From contig JAJTFW010000015.1 of assembly GCA_021299095.1 (NCBI GenBank), forward strand, positions 1 through 34,899: a stretch of DNA of 34,899 bases, written 5' to 3'. This DNA comes from Sphingobacteriales bacterium (GTDB taxonomy: Bacteria > Bacteroidota > Bacteroidia > AKYH767-A > OLB10). This document shows, piece after piece, positions 21,212 through 32,688 of the stretch; position 1 is the first letter of the stretch, and the number at the start of each line of letters is the position of its first letter. The position numbers and the translations under genes are program-made. The notes under the pieces were generated by a model. That model was not told the DNA's origin and made no database searches. It saw only the letters and a list, made by a program, of their open reading frames with translations.

Positions 21212-21240
21212 TCTTGGGAACCAACCTAAAACACCACCCG

Positions 21241-21594
21241 ATGAACGAATTCGAAACCCAGCAGAACCGCGACACACACTTCTCGAAGCGGATCAGAGCC
21301 GGTAAACGGACGTATTATTTCGACGTGAAAGCCACCCGTGGGAACGACTACTACATCACCATCACCGAAAGTAAGCGTAAGCCCGGTGAAAGTGAGGATC
21401 GTCCCTTTTTTGAAAAGCACAAGTTATTCCTGTACAAAGAGGATTTCGAAAAGTTCACCGAGGGCTTGCATGAAGCCTTGGATTTCATTCGCGAAAAGCG
21501 TGCTGGCGAGCACGATTCTGCTCCTGCACATCCAGGTTATGCCGAGGCTGGCCAAGGCTACTCCAACATCGAGTTCGATGACCTTGGACGATAA
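21241..21594 (+). CDS. DUF3276 (PUR-alpha-like) protein
   Basis: The 117-residue protein matches the DUF3276 family of small PUR-domain proteins, known in Borrelia and Bacteroidota as nucleic-acid-binding regulators. The core is RIRAGKRTYYFDVKATRGNDYYITITESKR, followed by a PFFEKHKLFLYKEDFEKF segment (about 58-75). The last 20-30 residues look disordered. A TTG at 21214 would add nine residues but lies at the predicted transcription start, so I chose ATG 21241. It has its own promoter and a terminator after it, so it is a single-gene unit. Confidence 0.88.
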   Translation: MNEFETQQNRDTHFSKRIRAGKRTYYFDVKATRGNDYYITITESKRKPGESEDRPFFEKHKLFLYKEDFEKFTEGLHEALDFIREKRAGEHDSAPAHPGYAEAGQGYSNIEFDDLGR

Positions 21595-21618
21595 GACGAA
21601 TGATTGAATAAACAGAGA

Positions 21619-21646
21619 AGCCTTGCGACATGCAGGGCTTTTTTTT
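21619..21646 (+). terminator. Rho-independent terminator after DUF3276
   Basis: An 8-bp stem AGCCTTGC/GCAGGGCT with one G-T pair and a 5-nt loop (GACAT) is followed by eight T residues. The opposing response-regulator gene ends at 21645, so on the minus strand the same hairpin has only a weak U-rich tail. Confidence 0.88.
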
Positions 21647-22448
21647 AACCTATTCGTGTAAGTTCGACATTGATATTGGCCTCAAGTGCCTCTATGATTC
21701 GTGAAATCGGATCGAGGTCGGATGGTATTTTTCCTTCTCTTAACAATTCCGTAAAAGTGCCGAATTGAGCTGCATCCTGTTCAGGACACAATAGGAATAC
21801 GGGTGATTTCAATTTATGTGCAGCCTGAAATGCCTGTTCGATTCCTGCAACGAGAGAGGGGTCTCCCAATCCGTTTTGAATCTCTGCATGCAGCTCGGGT
21901 ATTTGCCGCGAAAGCATACTTAGGAATACTCTGACATCGGACAAATTGTAACTGAACAAGTCGTGCACCTTTTCCATGCCTTTTACATCCCGAGTTTCAA
22001 CTCCCGGAAACTGCACCGGTTCTGCATTTAGCATTAAGGTTGAAAGCAGTTCGGTAAGATCCTGAGGACTATACGGCTTTGTGAGGTAGCCGTCCACACC
22101 GGCTTCTGCAGCATCTTGCCGGTCATGCTCTCCTGCATTGGCTGATATGACAACCAGAATGGGGCGTTTTCCGGATTCAGGGTTCAGGGAGCGAATGGTG
22201 CTACAAAGGGTATATCCGTTCATTCCAGGCATTTCAACATCGGTGAGTACAATGTCGAATGGTTCAGCATTGAAGAGGTCAAGTGCTTCTTTTCCGCTGC
22301 TTGCCAGCACGACGTTGGGCATACCCAATGAATTCAAAATCCGCTTACCCAGAAACAGGTTTACCCGGTTGTCATCAACCAATAAGACACGAATGGATTC
22401 GGCTGATTTTCCGTCGAGGGTCATGAATCGGAGGGATTCGTTGCTCAT
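21645..22448 (-). CDS. Response regulator with receiver and Hpt domains
   Basis: The 267-residue protein has a receiver domain (about 19-140): acidic pair D25/D26, phospho-acceptor D70 in LTDVEMPG, S102 and K124 (TKPY). A second part (about 150-265) carries HKLKSP with H211, the phospho-histidine motif of an Hpt domain. It lacks DNA-binding, histidine-kinase or enzymatic output domains, so it is a phosphorelay intermediate or a binding switch. It starts 7 bp after the CHU_C adhesin gene and is the last gene of the T9SS operon. There is no kinase in the window; its partner is unknown. It is not PorX, which has a PglZ domain. Confidence 0.92.
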   Translation of the reverse strand: MSNESLRFMTLDGKSAESIRVLLVDDNRVNLFLGKRILNSLGMPNVVLASSGKEALDLFNAEPFDIVLTDVEMPGMNGYTLCSTIRSLNPESGKRPILVVISANAGEHDRQDAAEAGVDGYLTKPYSPQDLTELLSTLMLNAEPVQFPGVETRDVKGMEKVHDLFSYNLSDVRVFLSMLSRQIPELHAEIQNGLGDPSLVAGIEQAFQAAHKLKSPVFLLCPEQDAAQFGTFTELLREGKIPSDLDPISRIIEALEANINVELTRIG

Positions 22449-22455
22449 AGTCGGA

Positions 22456-24096
22456 TTAACGCAACAAGGTGACTGTTCCCAGAATTTTCTTTTTCACCTT
22501 GATTCCCTCACTGTCTAACCCGGTGAAATTGATCCTGTAACCGTAAACGCCAATCGGAGCCTGTTCGCCTTTGTAGGTGCCATCCCAGCCGTTTTCAGTG
22601 TCTTCGCTATAAAATATTTCTTGTCCTCTCCGGTTGTATATCCTGAAGTTGTACTGGAGTACATTGTTGATGTATGGCTTGAAGATGTCATTGATGCCGT
22701 CGTCGTCCGGAGTGAAAGCGTTGGGTACGAAAATGGCCGGGTCGCAGCTTTCGTCAACGAACATTTCAGCTCGTCGCACACATCCGTTGGCCCTGTTTAC
22801 TGTCACAGAGTACGTTCCGGGTTGCAAAATGGTGATCCGACGGGTGGCGGATCCCGTAGACCATTGCCAGATCAGGCCGGGACCAGCGTCAAGCCTCAGG
22901 GTGTCGTAATAAAAGAAACAATACAGGGAATCATCACCAAGCGGAACAGGCGGATTCGACTTGAAGGCAGGTACGCGAACTGTATCGGTGGCGCTGCATG
23001 CACTGTTGGTCACCGTTACGACATAATCACCTGTGTCGCTCAGAAGAGCGACGGGTGTCAGAGATCCGGTACTCCACACATAATCGATGCCACCAGGAGT
23101 TGTTGCATCCAGTTGGATGGAATCTCCTTCACAAATTAACGTGTCGGAGACCAGATTTACGGGTGGTGGAGGCAGGATTTGTATGGTCACCGAGTCTGTG
23201 ATGCCCTCGGCGTGTAGGTAATAGGTGTAGGGTCCGCCTGGAGGCACCACCACGTCTTTGTTGATGCTAAACGTATCCGTCGGATTTCCGGTAATGGTCC
23301 ACCAATAGGGGAGATTGCAATCTGCTGTGAGAATGGTGCTTTCACCTGGGCAAATAATCGTGTCCCCGTCAATATTCACTCGCACATTTAGTGGGCGTAC
23401 TACAATATCATCGAAGAAATAGTAGGCACAGGTTTCTACTGCCTGACATCCTGAATTTCGCGCTCCTGTGTTTGTAAATGCGAAAGCCGGAGCGGATGCG
23501 CTGGTTCGAAACAGCCCGATGGTGATGTACTCTTCACCTCCTTGCGCCTGGAAGTTTCCTGTGATCGGAATCCAGAAATTCCGGTCTGTAACTGTATTGA
23601 ATTCCTTCACAGTGGCGAACAAATTGATAGGAGCACCTGGCGAGTTTTGAGCCGGCTTCTGCTTTGAAACGAGTGCGCCGAGAAGATTAATGGCATACTG
23701 TGCACTATCGGCCAACTGAACCACCATTTCAACACGGTAGTTTTCATTCGGCAGCAGTGGTGCCTTCAACTTTGCACAGAGGTATTCACGGTTTCCATTG
23801 GGAATTTGGAATGAAAGTCCAACATAATGGTTGAATCCATTTTCCTCGTCACAGTCGCCAGTTCCATTGGCCGGAATCCCAACCCAGTCGCAGGTGTTCA
23901 CGCTTCCTGTAGAGAAGCCGCGCTCATAAAGATCTGGAGTTCCGTTCAGGCCATCCCAATCTTGCAACTTACTCCAGTCCCCTTCGCCAATGGGTGATCC
24001 TGTTACCAGTTCAAAACTAGGATTTGGAACAAGGTTTTGAGCAGCAACGCACGTCCATATCAACAGGAAAATTGCACCAAGCAGAATGCGTTTCAT
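22456..24096 (-). CDS. T9SS-secreted surface protein with gliding-motility-associated (CHU_C) C-terminal domain
   Basis: The 546-residue protein has a signal peptide (about 1-20), an N-terminal domain beginning NLVPNPSFELV that resembles carbohydrate-binding or jelly-roll modules in such proteins (about 22-235), two or three short Ig-like repeats rich in Cys and Ser/Thr, such as ICPGESTILTA, and a CHU_C domain (about 456-546) starting FVPNAFTPDDDG. CHU_C (type B) domains direct T9SS export and surface delivery. The start is the ATG at 24096, which overlaps the stop of the upstream gene as TGATG; a GTG just before it adds one residue. It probably serves as an adhesin. Confidence 0.88.
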   Translation of the reverse strand: MKRILLGAIFLLIWTCVAAQNLVPNPSFELVTGSPIGEGDWSKLQDWDGLNGTPDLYERGFSTGSVNTCDWVGIPANGTGDCDEENGFNHYVGLSFQIPNGNREYLCAKLKAPLLPNENYRVEMVVQLADSAQYAINLLGALVSKQKPAQNSPGAPINLFATVKEFNTVTDRNFWIPITGNFQAQGGEEYITIGLFRTSASAPAFAFTNTGARNSGCQAVETCAYYFFDDIVVRPLNVRVNIDGDTIICPGESTILTADCNLPYWWTITGNPTDTFSINKDVVVPPGGPYTYYLHAEGITDSVTIQILPPPPVNLVSDTLICEGDSIQLDATTPGGIDYVWSTGSLTPVALLSDTGDYVVTVTNSACSATDTVRVPAFKSNPPVPLGDDSLYCFFYYDTLRLDAGPGLIWQWSTGSATRRITILQPGTYSVTVNRANGCVRRAEMFVDESCDPAIFVPNAFTPDDDGINDIFKPYINNVLQYNFRIYNRRGQEIFYSEDTENGWDGTYKGEQAPIGVYGYRINFTGLDSEGIKVKKKILGTVTLLR

Positions 24097-26135
24097 CACT
24101 TCAGTTCTTCGATGCGGATGATTTCAATTCTTCTTTCCAGCGCCGCGCCCAAGCTGTATACCGAACGGGCTTGTTCGTTGAGCCGGTCACTTACGGTGCT
24201 GGTTGCGTCTTCTCCGGAGGGAATGAACGTGATATTCAAGCGCCCATTGGTCAGAAATGGTTCCAGGATTCCCCCTTCCCACGACCTCCAGAAATTCAGC
24301 AGGCTGTTAATCCTCCGCTCTGACAAAGTTAGGTTGTAACGGGTTTCAGCCAAAGGACTGGCGGTTCCTTTTACGGTAATCGTCAGGCGATTTTCGGAAC
24401 CCTGCAAGCGAAGGATTAACTGGCGTGTAAAAGAGTCCAGTTTATCCATGTGCCCCTTGACAGAATCCCTGAAAAACATATCAATAGCTGTGGACTGCTC
24501 GTGCGAGCTTTGCTCACGGATGTAGGCATCTTTTCTCAGCAGGTAATTGCGGCAAAGGGTGTCCACCTGGCTTCGGGTAGTGGATTTTCTGCTGCGAGGG
24601 TCCGGATAATCGTTGTCAAAATACAATCGGATGGGGAATGTTTGGTTCAGGTAGTTGAGCTGCTGGTTGCCGGTAAGTGCCTTGAAATCGCCATCAGAAA
24701 GTAAGCTGACTGTCAATCCTGAACCTGAAATCGAATCCGCGTAATCGTTGCTTGAAAGGGTGATTTCTCTTAAGGCTTTATTTACAGATGTATCTGCTTC
24801 GATGCTGAATAAATCGTAACAACACGCCGAACCATCCAGCGATTGTGCCGGGGGGCGATTGCTGACTAACAGCGTATGGCGTTTAGGTCCGTAGGAACGG
24901 GTCATGTACAGATCGTTATAGGAACTGTTGTATGGAATCGGGAGAAGGTTTGCCTTTTCGGTAGCCTTTGACAGTTGGATGGAATATAAATCCAAGCCAC
25001 CGACTCCACCTGGGCGTTCACTGCTGAAATAAAGCGTATCGGTGAACGCATCATAAAATGGCGTCCATTCATCATGTTCGGTATTGATGGAATTGCCGAG
25101 GGATTCTGGTGCCGAAAAGCGTCCCTGATTCATACGCGCTTTATAAAGGTCCGTTCCTCCAAGGCCACCAGGACGGTTACTCGAATAAAAGAGGACATAC
25201 CCTTCGGCTCCATCGGTTGAAAGGCAAGGTTGTGTTGAGGTATAATCGGGCGAATTAATCCGGTTGTCAAGACGAATAGCTTCACCCCAGTTGTTTCCGC
25301 TTTTTGAGCTGATATACAGTGCACACTTTAAAATGCCATATGCATCTTCCAGGCAACGGCTAAAGACCATCCATTTGCCATCCGGTGAAACCGATGCATT
25401 GGCTGTGTTGAAAGAAGGCTGATTGATGGTATTTTCAATCAATGTGGAAGGGCTTCTGCGCAACGCCTGAGCAGGTGGATATGGCGTTATCGCTAAACGG
25501 GATGTCTGCTTTTTATTTTCATCCGTTCCTGTGAGGTACCGAAGTGAGGAATACAACAGCAAGCTGTCACCGATGAAACATGGAGCAAAGTCCGATTGAG
25601 CAGTGTTCACATCGCCACCCACTGGATACAGACCAACAGGAAAAGTATCCTGGACAGCTGCTTGTGTCTCACGCAGAAATATTCGGAGCTGCATGTTTTG
25701 CATACTGCTATCGGGAATCAAGGCTGCCAACTGGTTGATTGCGGTATCGGCCTGCTCAAAAATGCCAGAACGCTTACTTGTTTCAACTACAAGCCTGAGC
25801 AATTGGGCCATTTCGGCGGTACTCAATTCTGATTTCTTTTTTTTCTCGCCCAGTGCAATAGCTTGGTATGCAAATTCGAGTGACTGCTTGTAATTAAACA
25901 ACCTGAATTCAGCTTCTGCAAGGGCTGAAAGTACGACGGGATCTTCCCCGTAAAGCAGCGCCTGTTGTAAAAAAGATTTTGCACCGAATGCATCTTGTTT
26001 TACAAGGCAGGCCCGTGCTGCATTCATATAGGCTTGTTTCGATTGTGCAACAACGGGTTGTTGATTCGCTACAATCAGGTGCAGGAACAGAATCGAAAAT
26101 ACGCGCAACACACTGCGGGTCAGTAAACGGGACAT
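24096..26135 (-). CDS. PorE-like protein: TPR, PD40 beta-propeller and OmpA-like domain
   Basis: The 679-residue protein has a signal peptide (about 1-30), TPR-like helices (about 33-150), PD40/WD40-like propeller blades (about 180-440; repeated motifs such as SPDGKWMVFSR, YFSSERPGGVGGLDLY and FYSSNRPGGLGGTDLY) and an OmpA-like C-terminal domain (about 500-679) with GTASPLAETRYNLTLSERRI and RRIEIIRI. P. gingivalis PorE has TPR, propeller, a carboxypeptidase-regulatory-like domain and OmpA, and anchors the T9SS to peptidoglycan. Here I see no clear regulatory-like domain between propeller and OmpA. It overlaps the PorP/SprF gene by 16 bp and the CHU_C gene by one base. Confidence 0.88.
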   Translation of the reverse strand: MSRLLTRSVLRVFSILFLHLIVANQQPVVAQSKQAYMNAARACLVKQDAFGAKSFLQQALLYGEDPVVLSALAEAEFRLFNYKQSLEFAYQAIALGEKKKKSELSTAEMAQLLRLVVETSKRSGIFEQADTAINQLAALIPDSSMQNMQLRIFLRETQAAVQDTFPVGLYPVGGDVNTAQSDFAPCFIGDSLLLYSSLRYLTGTDENKKQTSRLAITPYPPAQALRRSPSTLIENTINQPSFNTANASVSPDGKWMVFSRCLEDAYGILKCALYISSKSGNNWGEAIRLDNRINSPDYTSTQPCLSTDGAEGYVLFYSSNRPGGLGGTDLYKARMNQGRFSAPESLGNSINTEHDEWTPFYDAFTDTLYFSSERPGGVGGLDLYSIQLSKATEKANLLPIPYNSSYNDLYMTRSYGPKRHTLLVSNRPPAQSLDGSACCYDLFSIEADTSVNKALREITLSSNDYADSISGSGLTVSLLSDGDFKALTGNQQLNYLNQTFPIRLYFDNDYPDPRSRKSTTRSQVDTLCRNYLLRKDAYIREQSSHEQSTAIDMFFRDSVKGHMDKLDSFTRQLILRLQGSENRLTITVKGTASPLAETRYNLTLSERRINSLLNFWRSWEGGILEPFLTNGRLNITFIPSGEDATSTVSDRLNEQARSVYSLGAALERRIEIIRIEELK

Positions 26136-27139
26136 ATTACACGGCGTTGTGTGTCGGGTTTAATCTTTCTTGAGGAGTAAATGATACTGATTTCCGGTCC
26201 GCCTCGGCTATTGCTAGCATTCCGTAAGTCCGATACGTTTATGTCGTACGAGATGGCGTAGCTGAACTTGCCTCTGTAGAGGTAAAGTGCAGGAACTATG
26301 GCGTCCTTCAGTCTGTAATGAATGGCTAAGCCGGCAGCAGTGGATTGTAGCGTATTTTCTCCTTGCAGCATTCGTACTTCGGTTCCAATCAAATACTCTG
26401 CTGCACCCGATTGCAACATCACACTCATTTGAGGTATCAACCGGATGTTATCGGTTAGGTCATGTTGCACGGCCAGGTTGTATTGACTTAAAACGGGTCT
26501 TCTTTCATTACCGCCAGCAAAAGGGTCCTTGGGTCGGTTGAGATGCAGCATACCCAATCCGAAAATCCAGTTGGTCGATTCGCCCAATCGTTCCCAGCTG
26601 AAACCGAAGCCCAGGTCACTCCATGTTGTGGTCGGTGATACGAAGTTTTCACCACTTAATGCTGCAGGGTCAAATGCATCTCCGTCAAACTGGTTGTCGA
26701 ATCTCAATCGGCTGAAATCAATGTTGCGGTGGCCGAAGCCCCAGGAAACTCCGCCGCTGAAGAAATGAACTGAATCACTATTCAATGACTTACGGTAGGA
26801 TACGGATAGCCTGGCCGATAGCCTACGTAGTATACCATCACCCGCAACATCGTGATGAATCAGTACTCCAGCACCTAAATTTTTCGGTAGTTTTTCTTTG
26901 AAAGAGCTGACTGGTGCATCTATAAAGAATGCTGCGGTTCGGTAAGGTACCGTGACCGACGACCATTGGCTACGGTATATTCCTCCTGATCGGATGTCTC
27001 CGTCAAAATGACCTGCCGCTGCGGGGTTGTATAGTATTCCCATACGGCTCCACTGTGAAAAATGAATATCCTGCGCATTGACCGGTTTTATTCCTGTCAA
27101 AATCCACACAAGGTACAGGGTGAGTATCCGCGTTTTCAT
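26120..27139 (-). CDS. PorP/SprF-family T9SS outer-membrane protein
   Basis: The 339-residue protein has a signal peptide (cleaved near NAQ) and the family N-terminus QDIHFSQWSRMGILYNPAAAGHFDGD, followed by RSQWSSV. Alternating beta strands fill the rest and suggest an outer-membrane barrel. PorP/SprF proteins bind or anchor specific T9SS substrates with CHU_C domains, such as SprB with SprF. I chose the ATG at 27139, which overlaps the stop of the adhesin gene (ATGA), over an upstream extension to 27190 that lies inside that gene and precedes the signal peptide. Its partner is probably the adhesin on either side. Confidence 0.93.
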   Translation of the reverse strand: MKTRILTLYLVWILTGIKPVNAQDIHFSQWSRMGILYNPAAAGHFDGDIRSGGIYRSQWSSVTVPYRTAAFFIDAPVSSFKEKLPKNLGAGVLIHHDVAGDGILRRLSARLSVSYRKSLNSDSVHFFSGGVSWGFGHRNIDFSRLRFDNQFDGDAFDPAALSGENFVSPTTTWSDLGFGFSWERLGESTNWIFGLGMLHLNRPKDPFAGGNERRPVLSQYNLAVQHDLTDNIRLIPQMSVMLQSGAAEYLIGTEVRMLQGENTLQSTAAGLAIHYRLKDAIVPALYLYRGKFSYAISYDINVSDLRNASNSRGGPEISIIYSSRKIKPDTQRRVICPVY

Positions 27140-29505
27140 CTGATCAGGGTCAGATTGGATTTTTTTAGAAATGTGGCCTTGTTGAAGCATGTGGCCTCAA
27201 GTACGACTACGTAAACATCCGCAGGTGCATCACGACCTTCGAACCGACCGTCCCAACCTCGTTGCTGATCTTCGGTTTCAAATACCTTCTGACCCCAGCG
27301 GTTGAAAATCATCAGGTGCATTTTTTCGATTGTATTACCCCGTATCCTGAATCCATCGTTGCGCTGGTCTGCATTCGGTGTGAATGCGTTGGGTACAAAT
27401 AGTTCGGGCTCGTCACAAATAACCCGGATGACACTTAGTTGAATCGTATCGGATGCCGGACAGCCATTGGCATCCAAAACCTGAACGATGTAACTAATGT
27501 CCTCCGTAGGGCTTGCAAGTGGATTTTGCACACTGGTTGAATTCAAGCCTGAGCCGGGACTCCAGCTATATGTGAAATTTCCGGTCGGCGTAAGGGCGTA
27601 TAGTTGTGTGCTTTGTCCATAATATAGGATGTTCGCGTCAGCAGTAGCAATCACCGATGGAAATGAGTCTGTATAAAGGACTTCAATCGAATCTACTGCG
27701 AAACAGCCGAGAGGATCCGTAACAACAGCACTATACAAACCAGGGCACAAACCAGTTGCCGACGAGCCATTTTGCTGGAGAGAGTCGTTCCATGCAATGG
27801 TATATGCGCCGTTACCACCGGTTGCGGTTACAGTGGCACTACCTGCACAAATTCCGCCGCAGTAATCTGGTGTTGTATTCAGATTAATCACCAAGGGTGC
27901 TGGTTCCCCAATCGTAATAGTAGCTAATGCAGTGCAGTTTCGGCTGTCGGTAACCGTTACCGAGTAGCTGCCGGCGCACAGGTTATTGGCCGTAGGGCCA
28001 TTCTGGTTTTGCGGGTCATTCCATTGGTAAATGAATGGTGGTTGACCAAACTGGCTGCCAACTGTGGCCGATCCGTTGCAGTCGCCAAAGCAATTGGCAG
28101 GGGCAATTACTTGGGGTTGAACCTGGAGAGCCGGACCGATAAGCAATGGACGACGTAGTGTATCAATACAACCCCTGTCGGATGTGGCTATCAACGTCAC
28201 GGTATAAATTCCCGGTTGAGAATACGTGTGGGTCGGGTTGGATTGGTTCGCTGTCGACCCATCTCCAAATTGCCATTTCCAGTCTACGGTTGTTCCTCCA
28301 GTAGCGACTGAGTCGAAGAATTGAGCCGTATTATTGCAAGGGTCGATGGTGAATCTGAATCCAGGAGCGTAATCAGGAAGAATCGTAACGCTTCCGATGG
28401 TCGTATCCACACAGCCCGGATCAGTTGGCGATACAGCAATCAGGGTCACCGTGTATACGCCAGTATCGGGATAGGTGTAATTTGGTTCGAAGGCTGAGGA
28501 TGTGTCTGAGTTTATGCCCGACACGCCGAAGTCCCAGAAGTAACTACCTGCATTGAAACTGAAATTTTGAAAAGCAACCGTATTGCTTCCGCAGCTGATG
28601 AGAGGATTTTGAAGTGCAGCGACTACCAGATTAGGACAAGGAACCACATTCAATTGAAAGTCACGTCGGGTATATCCAATCAGAATACCGTTCCTAAACT
28701 CCTTGGCCCGTATACCGATTACGAATTGCCCAAGTGTGTTGGGGTATGCAGTTAGCAGTCCGGTATTGACATCAATGTTCATGGGAGGGATGCCGCCAAG
28801 CATATCCTGTTGAGAGTAGGGAGCTTGAAACACAACTGGTGCGTATGGTGGGGGATTCGGTGGTTGGGGAATGGGGTTAGCAACCGTACCGCCTTCATGT
28901 GGGGTTATCAGTTCATAAGCGATCGAATCCCCTTCGAAATCCGTGGCCGAGTGATCAAAGATGAACGGGACTCCGGCACAGATGAAAGGTGGAGGCCAAA
29001 GTGTGAACACAGGGTTACTGTTGGCTGCATACACATCAACTCCTGAAATCCGGGCTTCATAGGTTGCGCCGACTGCATCAGGGGTAACGATGTTCAGGAT
29101 GGTCATATTTCGACAGCAACGCTGATACGCAAGAATATATCCTCCAGGGGAAGGTGGCAGGTATATGGTATCGGTATATACAGTCCTTTCGTAGCAAATA
29201 TTGGTTGGCGGAACAAAGCAGGGACCGTTGATTGTTGGTGGAACGGTGTCGAGCTCAATGAATGTAAACAGCTTTTCTCTGACCAGTGTGTTGGTTATCG
29301 CATTAAAGATTCCGACCGATGCTGGATTATCGAAAGGCGGTACGCCATTCCAGCAGTCTCTGTACACTGTTAAATTGATGCGGTAAACGTTATTCCCCAG
29401 GTAGCGGTAATTCAGTTCTCCACCGACAATGTGAGTCGCCCTGAGGGAGCCGCATGAAACAAACATCAGCAGCAATAAAAGAAGCTTTCGTAGCCACATC
29501 TGCAT
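27136..29505 (-). CDS. Large T9SS adhesin with PKD and SprB repeats and CHU_C domain
   Basis: The 789-residue surface protein starts with a signal peptide (residues 1-24; alternative ATG at 29499). An N-terminal beta-rich region follows (about 25-300; HIVGGELNYRYLGNNVYRI), typical of Bacteroidota adhesins. Then come two PKD domains (about 305-380 and 385-460; YFWDFG, WKWQFGDGST), two SprB-type repeats (about 463-538 and 540-615; GSYSVTVTDSRNC) and a CHU_C domain (about 700-789; FVPNAFTPNADQRND) for T9SS export. SprB is the gliding adhesin of Flavobacterium; this is much smaller, so gliding is possible but not proven. First gene of the five-gene operon. Confidence 0.92.
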   Translation of the reverse strand: MQMWLRKLLLLLLMFVSCGSLRATHIVGGELNYRYLGNNVYRINLTVYRDCWNGVPPFDNPASVGIFNAITNTLVREKLFTFIELDTVPPTINGPCFVPPTNICYERTVYTDTIYLPPSPGGYILAYQRCCRNMTILNIVTPDAVGATYEARISGVDVYAANSNPVFTLWPPPFICAGVPFIFDHSATDFEGDSIAYELITPHEGGTVANPIPQPPNPPPYAPVVFQAPYSQQDMLGGIPPMNIDVNTGLLTAYPNTLGQFVIGIRAKEFRNGILIGYTRRDFQLNVVPCPNLVVAALQNPLISCGSNTVAFQNFSFNAGSYFWDFGVSGINSDTSSAFEPNYTYPDTGVYTVTLIAVSPTDPGCVDTTIGSVTILPDYAPGFRFTIDPCNNTAQFFDSVATGGTTVDWKWQFGDGSTANQSNPTHTYSQPGIYTVTLIATSDRGCIDTLRRPLLIGPALQVQPQVIAPANCFGDCNGSATVGSQFGQPPFIYQWNDPQNQNGPTANNLCAGSYSVTVTDSRNCTALATITIGEPAPLVINLNTTPDYCGGICAGSATVTATGGNGAYTIAWNDSLQQNGSSATGLCPGLYSAVVTDPLGCFAVDSIEVLYTDSFPSVIATADANILYYGQSTQLYALTPTGNFTYSWSPGSGLNSTSVQNPLASPTEDISYIVQVLDANGCPASDTIQLSVIRVICDEPELFVPNAFTPNADQRNDGFRIRGNTIEKMHLMIFNRWGQKVFETEDQQRGWDGRFEGRDAPADVYVVVLEATCFNKATFLKKSNLTLIR

Positions 29506-29582: not shown

Positions 29583-30197
29583 TTAACGTACAGCCAGATT
29601 TAGTAAACGCTCGCCTTCCAGCTCGGCAATTAGTTGATCACCTGCCTGCACTTTTCCTACCCCTTCGGGAGTGCCTGTGAAGATATAATCGCCGATTTTC
29701 AGGGTAAAATAGGCCGATACGAACGCGATAATGCGGTCAACGGAGAAAATCATATCGGCCGTATGACCGGACTGCCTTACTTCGCCGTTAACGTGCAGCG
29801 TGAAGCGCAGATCCTGAACCGATTTGTTAAGTCGCTGGAGGGGAATAAAAGTTCCAACGGGCGCCGATCCGTCGAACCCCTTGGACAACTCCCAAGGCAA
29901 GCCCTTGCTTTTCAATTTGCTTTGCGTGTCACGGGCAGTGAAGTCAATTCCAAGACTTACTTCATCGTAGTACCGGTGGGCAAAACGCTCTTCGATGTGT
30001 TTTCCAACTTTATTGATGCGAACTACAAGTTCGGTTTCGAAATGAAAATCTTCCGCGTGGTCTGGAATGAAAAACGGTTGCCTGGCAGGGATTAACGCAG
30101 TTTCCGGTTTCATGAAAATAACCGGTTCCTCCTCTACAGCATTGTTGAGTTCACGGGCATGCGCGGCATAATTGCGTCCTACACAAATAATTTTCAT
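29583..30197 (-). CDS. Fumarylacetoacetate hydrolase (FAH)-family enzyme
   Basis: The 204-residue cytosolic enzyme has the compact FAHD1/YcgM form. Motifs include GRNYAAHA (about 7-14), the metal-binding HFETELVVRI (about 51-60), GIDFTARDTQ (about 82-91), KGFDGSAPVG (about 105-114) and FTGTPEGVGK (about 173-182). Relatives hydrolyse acylpyruvates or decarboxylate oxaloacetate; the exact substrate cannot be read here. The start overlaps the glycosyltransferase stop (ATGA), so it ends the GWxTD-GT2-FAH unit. Confidence 0.93.
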   Translation of the reverse strand: MKIICVGRNYAAHARELNNAVEEEPVIFMKPETALIPARQPFFIPDHAEDFHFETELVVRINKVGKHIEERFAHRYYDEVSLGIDFTARDTQSKLKSKGLPWELSKGFDGSAPVGTFIPLQRLNKSVQDLRFTLHVNGEVRQSGHTADMIFSVDRIIAFVSAYFTLKIGDYIFTGTPEGVGKVQAGDQLIAELEGERLLNLAVR

Positions 30198-31197
30198 AAC
30201 TGAGAAGGAAATCGTTGAATCGGCAGACTGCTGAAGGATTTGATGCGTTTGAAGTAAAAATCGAACAGAATACTACCTTGGTAAATACCGGTCTTGTTCA
30301 TCGACGACTGAAGCGATTCTTTCCGAATGGAGGAGGGCTGCATGGACAACTTGTAAAAGCTGAAATGAGCTCGCACAACTGCCCAGGTGTCTTTCGCATC
30401 GCCATCCAGCAGGAACTTCAGTCCGGCCACTCCATCGAGCAACAATCGAATCGGTATGATCCACAGCAAGATTGGCCAGGAAAGATTCTTCGTTAACATG
30501 AGCAGGTTATTTCTGAAGTTGTAAAAGGTTTTTCTGGGATTCTTTTTAGGCAATGTTCCGCCTCCGACATGGTATACGGTACTTTGCGGTATGACCACGA
30601 TGTTGTGTCCTTTTTTTCTGAGACGCCAGCACAAATCGATTTCTTCCATGTGCGCAAAGAATCGCTCATCGAACCCGCCTTCATTTTTGAAAAGGTTGGC
30701 GCGGATTATCATACAGGCACCGGTTGCCCAGAATACAGGCATGATGGAATCATATTGGCCTTTATCGACCTCAAGTGAATTCATGATTCGCCCTCTGCAA
30801 AATGGGTAGCCGAAGGTATCGATGAATCCGCCGCAGGCCCCGGCATGCTCGAACAAATTGCGGTGTTCATAGGAGCGGATTTTGGGCTGGCACGCTGCGG
30901 TTTCGGGATGGGTGTCCATCCAATTGATCAAAGGCCCAAGCCATCCGGTTGAAGTTTCAACATCCGAATTCAGCAGCAAAAAGTAGTCCCACCGGTGAAG
31001 CCAAAATTACGATCCAGTTTGATGATTTCAACTTGCGGGAAATCACTGATCAGCAGCGCTACAGAATTATCTGTTGAAGCGTTATCTGCAACAATGATTC
31101 TGGCAAGATGAGATGAATCGGCAATGACACCTGGAAGAAAACGTTTCAGGAACGACGCTCCATTCCAATTCAGAATGACGATAGCAACGCGCTTCAC
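30194..31197 (-). pseudogene. Family 2 glycosyltransferase broken by a small frameshifting deletion
   Basis: Starting with GTG at 31197, the first part has the GT2 N-terminus AIVILNWNG, the nucleotide-sugar motif ADNASTDNS and RNFGFTGG, then stops at 30970. The remaining 261-residue frame begins LLNSDVETSTGWL (NSD is the DxD-like motif) and runs through PVFWATGACMIIR, EEIDLCWRLRKKG and a C-terminal hydrophobic region. Related enzymes have about ten residues (a YNxAL... helix) between GG and DYxLLNSD. These are missing, together with one extra base, so about 31 bases seem to have been lost. The unbroken gene would make a membrane-associated glycosyltransferase of about 340 residues. A sequencing or assembly error is possible. 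It is 24 bp downstream of the GWxTD gene and overlaps FAH by four bases. Confidence 0.8.
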
Positions 31198-31221: not shown

Positions 31222-32688
31222 TCAACGCGGATTCTGGAAAATCTGTTCGAAGTTTTCTCCATACGTGGTGCGGACTTTCGTTTTATCCACATCATTCATG
31301 GATTCGGTTCGCCGCTTCAACCTGACCATCCATTGCGTGTCGAAAATTTCACCGCGCGCATCGCTATGTAACAAGCTGAAATCATTGCCACCGATTTCCG
31401 GGCAGTAAAAAATAAACTTCCGGTTGGTTTGATTGCCAATTGTATAATACTGCCAGATTTCGTAGGGGTACGTCCCGGGCTCATTGTAGTTGCGACTGAT
31501 CTGGTTTGGGATTCCGTAACGCAAATAAACCCGGCCTCTCTCAGTCATGTATCCTCTCTTTCTGCCAACGGAATAATTGTCGTTCACTTTTTTGACTTCT
31601 GCAGCGTATTTCTGCCAAGCCTCCTGAGGTGCAGCAGGATTTCGCCTGTACCAGAAATCATAAAAGAACTGCTGCATTTGTACAAGATCAGCGATAGTTA
31701 GCTGATTGATTGCAAACGTATTCTCATTCGGATTGGAAATAGGCCAAAGACTACGGATTGATTCGGCAAGCGAGTCCTTGTTGGTGAAGAACAAAACGAA
31801 TGTTCCTGCTAAATCGCGATTTGAAAAAACCAATTCACCATTTTCACTGCTCGCTGCGACCGGATTGCTTCGTTGAAAAAACACCGATTGCTCGGCCAAG
31901 AGCTTGTTCTCCTTGTCCCTTAATTCGAGTAATAACTGGTAATTTCCAGAGGAGAGTTGACGAATATCGATTTCGTTCAGGACAGGAATGACCGCCGCCG
32001 ATTTCACACGCTTGAATCCTGTATAGGAATCCATGACGCGCTTACCCTCATTCAAAATAATCTTGTAGGTTATAAGTAAATCACCACCATCGGCAAAAAC
32101 GGGATAGAGTTCGGCGTAGTACGACAAGGACTCTCTTGAACGATCAAAAAAGTCATCAACCAGTGGCTCAGTTTTCAGGCTTTTGTCACTTTCATCTGTC
32201 CAATGTCGGCTGATGAATTTGATATCAGAAATGCAGTCTTTCGATTTGAAATCGGGGATTTCAATATCCTGCACGACTTTTTGAGCCTTGTTTTCTGCGC
32301 GTTTTGAATCCCTTAATTCCAGTTCGAGCTTATACAAGCCCGGACTCAAACCAATCCGGTGTACATCATTAAAGTCTTCGATTGAGGCAAGCGTATCGCT
32401 CGTTTCCGGACCCAATAGATTGAACTTGTCGAAATACCGCACGCTGTCGCCTTTCGAAATCACCAGTGTGGCTTCGACCGTGGCGCTGAATTTTCCATTG
32501 CCTAAAGCTGAATAGCCGACGCTGAAACCATCGATTAGCGTATAGGTTTCAATGTATGGACCGACGCCCGGCGCTTGAAACACGCAATGCGAGAAGCGGG
32601 CTTGAAGTACCTTGCCTTGGGCTGAAGCCGATTCGGGAAGGCTGATTAGGCAAAGGCTAAACAGGAAACAAGTAACAATCCGTAGCAT
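31222..32688 (-). CDS. GWxTD-domain exported protein
   Basis: The 488-residue protein has a signal peptide (cleaved near ASAQ, about residue 24). Ig-like beta domains follow (about 30-290; GKFSATVEATL, GLYKLELELRD, GNYQLLLELRD). A C-terminal GWxTD domain (about 300-470) contains FFYDFWYRRNP, RGRVYLRYGIP and PYEIWQYY. GWxTD proteins are conserved in Bacteroidota and related phyla; the function is unknown, though envelope roles are assumed. Downstream are a glycosyltransferase and the FAH gene. The ATG is 4 nt from a TATCTTTG element. Confidence 0.9.
   Translation of the reverse strand: MLRIVTCFLFSLCLISLPESASAQGKVLQARFSHCVFQAPGVGPYIETYTLIDGFSVGYSALGNGKFSATVEATLVISKGDSVRYFDKFNLLGPETSDTLASIEDFNDVHRIGLSPGLYKLELELRDSKRAENKAQKVVQDIEIPDFKSKDCISDIKFISRHWTDESDKSLKTEPLVDDFFDRSRESLSYYAELYPVFADGGDLLITYKIILNEGKRVMDSYTGFKRVKSAAVIPVLNEIDIRQLSSGNYQLLLELRDKENKLLAEQSVFFQRSNPVAASSENGELVFSNRDLAGTFVLFFTNKDSLAESIRSLWPISNPNENTFAINQLTIADLVQMQQFFYDFWYRRNPAAPQEAWQKYAAEVKKVNDNYSVGRKRGYMTERGRVYLRYGIPNQISRNYNEPGTYPYEIWQYYTIGNQTNRKFIFYCPEIGGNDFSLLHSDARGEIFDTQWMVRLKRRTESMNDVDKTKVRTTYGENFEQIFQNPR

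Follow-up and report, generated by a model that had tools for sequence, protein, structure and literature searches.

A REC-Hpt gene in a T9SS adhesin operon, traced by homology to the C-terminal end of a TPR hybrid histidine kinase

The window, by which we mean the whole stretch of 34,899 nucleotides that was analysed (Sphingobacteriales bacterium, contig JAJTFW010000015.1), contains an operon for T9SS adhesins that ends in a gene for a 267-aa REC-Hpt protein. Related genomes have homologues in this slot that encode a complete cytosolic TPR-HisKA-HATPase-REC-Hpt hybrid histidine kinase; the gene here lacks the kinase half and is best described as what is left of the C-terminal end of such a kinase. 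The first-pass annotation had seen in it a possible phosphorelay switch for the T9SS and did not foresee an origin from a hybrid kinase, the intact form of which we recognize, by homology, in other genera. A single family holds in this one slot an intact hybrid kinase, an ATPase-dead form, a kinase-less TPR-REC-Hpt protein and bare REC-Hpt, a natural series that is repeated independently in a sister family. From this series, the valued part of the kinase would seem to be the phosphotransfer pair, rather than the sensor or the ATPase, and it is also indicative of a regulator that moves together with a T9SS cargo-anchor operon. To our knowledge, little has been described of T9SS regulation beyond PorX/PorY/SigP, and our literature search returned no relevant paper on Bacteroidetes TPR hybrid kinases with Hpt, or on the T9SS with hybrid kinases.

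The operon and its REC-Hpt protein

Five minus-strand genes, overlapping or tightly spaced, make up the operon, and their coordinates, overlaps, gap and domains agree with the first-pass annotation. As called from open reading frames and Pfam/NCBIfam matches, they begin with an adhesin of 789 aa (27136..29505) with PKD and SprB repeats and a CHU_C type B sorting domain, followed by a PorP/SprF outer-membrane protein of 356 aa (26120..27190; PorP_SprF domain match of 108 bits), whose likely start at the internal ATG 27139 gives a 4-bp overlap with the adhesin gene. The PorE-like gene (24096..26135; 679 aa, with a PD40 region and a divergent C-terminal part) overlaps PorP/SprF by 16 bp, and its product shows partial similarity to PorE, at 122 bits against an NCBIfam cut-off of 600. 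A CHU_C (type B CTD) T9SS cargo of 547 aa comes next (22456..24099; CHU_C match of 58.7 bits), overlapping the PorE-like gene by 1 bp if translated from ATG 24096 or by 4 bp from GTG 24099, and the REC-Hpt gene (21645..22448), called from its reading frame, Pfam, alignment and a structure model, starts 7 bp past the CHU_C stop. The operon has the cargo-PorP-PorE arrangement, with a CHU_C cargo gene adjoining PorP/SprF and PorE-like genes, the latter below its cut-off. Its adhesin-PorP-PorE triad matches the reported anchor complex of PorE, PorP and type B CTD cargo (PG1035; SprF-SprB), for which the accessible part of the source reports no regulator (PMC9143113), whereas the window operon has a kinase-derived gene attached.

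Upstream on the minus strand lie a gene for an FAA-hydrolase family protein, co-directional with the operon (29583..30197; reading frame, domain and gene-order comparison), and genes for a family-2-type glycosyltransferase (30194..30979) and a GWxTD-domain protein (31222..32688), both called from their reading frames and gene-order comparison. Several relatives likewise have the FAA-hydrolase gene conserved on the upstream side of the adhesin gene, and the glycosyltransferase homologues in relatives are longer, at 337-358 aa.

Judged from spacing only, the REC-Hpt gene would be co-transcribed with the adhesin operon, as the 7-bp gap leaves too little room for an intergenic promoter. Consensus scans, which are poor predictors, found no promoter-like signal at the CHU_C/REC-Hpt junction, whether sigma-70-like or of the Bacteroidetes TTTG/TAnnTTTG type, and a promoter of its own, which the first-pass annotation had named as counting against its proposal, was set aside on this weak evidence. 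On the 3' side of REC-Hpt, before the convergent gene at 21214-21594, is a minus-strand hairpin with a T-rich tail (AAGCC-TGC/GCA-GGCTT, 21612..21640; -10.8 kcal/mol, z -2.0), a possible bidirectional terminator.

The receiver occupies residues 21-135 (Response_reg, 95 bits, Pfam) and its residue set is complete, with the acid pair D25 and D26, the phospho-Asp D70, S102 and K124. The Hpt helical bundle spans approximately residues 156-266, with H211 in an HxLK motif; a sequence check placed D70 and H211 where they had first been reported. At 13.6 bits the Hpt match falls below the Pfam cut-off of 24.6, as it does in all f1 short forms examined, and its assignment draws on three lines of evidence: an AF2 prediction (pLDDT 92) in which the C-terminal domain forms a helical bundle with H211 within a long helix, top PDB matches of that prediction to Hpt domains of hybrid kinases (3myf and BarA 3iqt; TM 0.60-0.69, with Foldseek E only 0.07-0.15), and homologues whose Hpt exceeds the Pfam cut-off. 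HisKA, HATPase_c and PglZ were all absent from the 267-aa protein in Pfam searches, and the domain search gave no output domain besides REC and Hpt, in line with the earlier reading of a protein that has neither DNA-binding nor enzymatic output. A PorX-like fold was considered and rejected: PorX ranked first in Foldseek, yet with a TM of 0.40 and an rmsd of 18, so that the REC part alone aligns.

Descent from a TPR hybrid histidine kinase

Other genera of the window's family have, in the same slot, a longer protein that ends in the REC-Hpt unit; its length is 842-881 aa, or 611 aa in G010. In the proteins of G005, G012 and G008, Pfam identifies TPR repeats, HisKA, HATPase_c, Response_reg and Hpt, and in the first two of these genomes the full TPR-kinase homologues occupy the operon slot. 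Over REC and Hpt the window protein is 28-39% identical to the TPR hybrid kinases; these kinases of the same order are its direct homologues, from which it differs in having no TPR, HisKA or HATPase. We also considered that the kinase half might have moved, and searched 16 genomes with the TPR-kinase part of G005. No relocated half was found in the short-form genomes, where the matches were limited to the generic kinase core plus the stretch immediately preceding it, and never spanned the full TPR part; relocation was therefore rejected, and in the window genome the kinase half appears to be absent rather than encoded elsewhere.

Two further forms complete the series. All four g4 genomes (G006, G013, G017, G019) encode TPR hybrid kinases with an intact HisKA and H-box, in which HATPase_c was undetected and the N-box asparagine and the G1 motif DxGxGI (G1 Asp) are lost (L129:7580-10114, L131:9484-12012, L135:7339-9873, L136:8103-10661), and we read this form as a natural pseudo-histidine-kinase in the operon slot. 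It is to these ATPase-dead forms that RcsD of the enterobacterial Rcs phosphorelay comes closest in idea, being a phosphotransfer protein built like a hybrid kinase, in which the kinase domain is inactive and the Hpt relays phosphate between a different kinase and a regulator (PMC13317618). RcsD sits in the membrane and has retained its dead kinase domain. The window form, by contrast, is a soluble protein that possesses an intact REC and from which the kinase and sensor portions are gone entirely. The G010 protein combines TPR-like repeats and REC with the aligned C-terminal region, has neither HisKA nor HATPase, and groups with the REC-Hpt genomes both in the adhesin+PorP+PorE tree (support 0.95) and in the REC-Hpt tree (0.95), on a long branch; its domain set and placement fit a history in which the kinase domains were lost first and the TPR second.

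In the sister family f3, the same TPR kinase, at 858-872 aa, comes directly after homologues of the window's glycosyltransferase and GWxTD genes, uninterrupted by any T9SS gene, an order seen in G025, G031, G033, G035, G037, G038 and G039. In G036, another f3 genome, a 290-aa REC-Hpt protein is all that the slot contains (L146:9135-10007), 51 bp past the glycosyltransferase; its Hpt scores 42.5 bits, over the Pfam cut-off, and T9SS genes do not adjoin it. Comparison of the slot identifies this short form as an independent truncation of the same kinase. Kinase activity would have been lost at least three times with REC and Hpt kept, namely in the line of G010, g1, g5 and g7, in g4 and in G036. 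As a side observation, both families have conserved the GWxTD and glycosyltransferase pair on the upstream side of the kinase slot.

Linkage to the T9SS genes and history of the locus

A genome search recovered REC-Hpt homologues of about 270 aa in ten relatives at 43-47% identity. Far from being absent at this position in relatives, which the first-pass annotation had held would speak against it, the gene is present in every close relative checked and recurs beside the PorP/SprF-CHU_C operon in all 11 genomes of genera g1, g5 and g7 (window included), on the same strand and 7-34 bp after CHU_C. Among relatives with the short form, the order adhesin-PorP-PorE-like-CHU_C-REC-Hpt is identical wherever the contig extends far enough, REC-Hpt is followed there by a homologue of the convergent 126-aa gene, and the retention of the five-gene order at 36-63% protein identity is far beyond chance. 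Counting kinases and remnants together, 21 genomes of the window's family have one, and it adjoins the T9SS block in 18 of them; in G008 the kinase is separated from the triad, and no T9SS linkage was seen in G015 or in G011, where the kinase is apparently split across two contigs.

The partnership is not universal. The triad occurs without the kinase in f4 (G026, G029), in f5 (G027) and in G004 of the window's own family, the last of which indicates that the kinase is dispensable for the anchor operon, and f3 keeps an adhesin homologue alone at the loci read. As the f3 kinase stands without T9SS genes and two further families have the triad without a kinase, anchor operon and kinase locus appear to have merged; the simplest history that gene order suggests is an insertion of the triad between glycosyltransferase and kinase in the ancestor of the window's family, after which the kinase half would have been lost. 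The first-pass annotation had held that a distant kinase unrelated to the T9SS would speak against its proposal, and as regards ancestry this applies in part, the protein's former kinase having existed apart from the operon.

The f3, f4 and f5 arrangements are what would be expected if REC-Hpt were a passive hitchhiker that serves an unrelated phosphorelay, its location a by-product of that insertion. We regard this as a rather unlikely explanation. It sits poorly with the g4 genomes, in which both flanks have changed and adhesin, PorP, PorE and kinase have nevertheless remained together, with G008, in which CHU_C and kinase are still paired after parting from the triad, and with the tightening of the spacing in the short forms. 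The g4 rearrangement with an intact block and the 18 of 21 linkages favour a selected link, and are not strong enough to argue for control of secretion. What survives of the switch first proposed is its conserved linkage to the operon; the protein does not look purpose-built, and is rather a reduced hybrid kinase kept with it. A role in secretion or adhesion, suggested by gene order, is possible but unproven.

Proposed function of the retained pair

The retained REC and Hpt end probably acts now as an in-trans phosphotransfer intermediate fed by another kinase, for which RcsD offers a precedent; with no catalytic domain in the protein, the phosphate must come from elsewhere. Another histidine kinase of the cell would phosphorylate D70 of the receiver in trans, the phosphoryl group would pass from D70 to H211, and H211 would then hand it to a separate response regulator, or the flow would be reversed and the pair serve as a sink. 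Made in step with the T9SS type B adhesin and its PorP/PorE anchor, the protein would tie signalling capacity to expression of the surface complex. A candidate phosphate donor in the window genome is a PAS-HisKA-HATPase-REC-Hpt kinase beside a sigma-54 regulator (G000 contig C47, L134:9593-13333), the nearest there to the lost TPR kinase. As a compensating kinase it was discarded, because genomes that retain an intact TPR kinase have similar hybrid kinases of about 790-800 aa as well, which makes it no clear replacement. The window genome also encodes another short REC-Hpt protein, whose gene is separate from the operon and flanked by a lone REC gene and a sigma-54 regulator (contig C56, L133:7825-10305), and short REC-Hpt proteins are thus not unique to the T9SS operon.

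A more specific proposal, that the kinase-less relay directly links a cytosolic phosphorelay to the secretion or display of that particular adhesin, as a T9SS branch apart from or feeding PorX/PorY, seems to us unlikely. The window genome has PorX (L175:981-2558, 847 bits), SprA and GldL, so that the T9SS and its known regulator are both present. The likeness to PorX/PorY lies in a cytosolic REC protein connected with the T9SS; PorX is a REC-helical bundle-PglZ protein encoded elsewhere, and the window REC-Hpt has no PglZ.

More doubtful still is a direct output of the CheY/PorX kind, in which the phosphorylated REC would bind a T9SS part such as the cytoplasmic end of GldL (PorL) and tune secretion, with Hpt mainly loading or unloading REC. 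Such a role draws on Flavobacterium johnsoniae PorX, whose CheY-like domain, once activated, binds GldL (PMC10951265), as well as on the presence of PorX, SprA and GldL in the window genome and of the gene inside a T9SS cargo operon. We found no precedent for a second T9SS-bound REC, and the Hpt histidine, needless for pure binding, is invariant in every form; the f3 homologue does not stand beside T9SS genes, and the structural match to PorX is confined to REC.

The coding sequences are those of a working protein. D25, D26, D70, K124 and H211 are invariant among the eleven REC-Hpt sequences, whose identity to the window protein is 36-44%, and no stop codons occur within the genes. The dN/dS of REC-Hpt is 0.017-0.13 overall, being 0.017 for the pair G007/G022 and 0.07-0.13 for further pairs, in which saturation of dS is frequent. 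Low dN/dS and invariant phospho-site residues together mark the gene as functional rather than decaying, with its phospho-sites under purifying selection. That it is a functionless remnant en route to loss, as the missing kinase half and the drift of its Hpt from the Pfam consensus might suggest, is contradicted by these data across three genera and has a negligible chance of being correct. Between G007 and G022, no genes of the operon are under stronger constraint than CHU_C and REC-Hpt, with a dN/dS of 0.017 each, the other three having values of 0.06-0.09.
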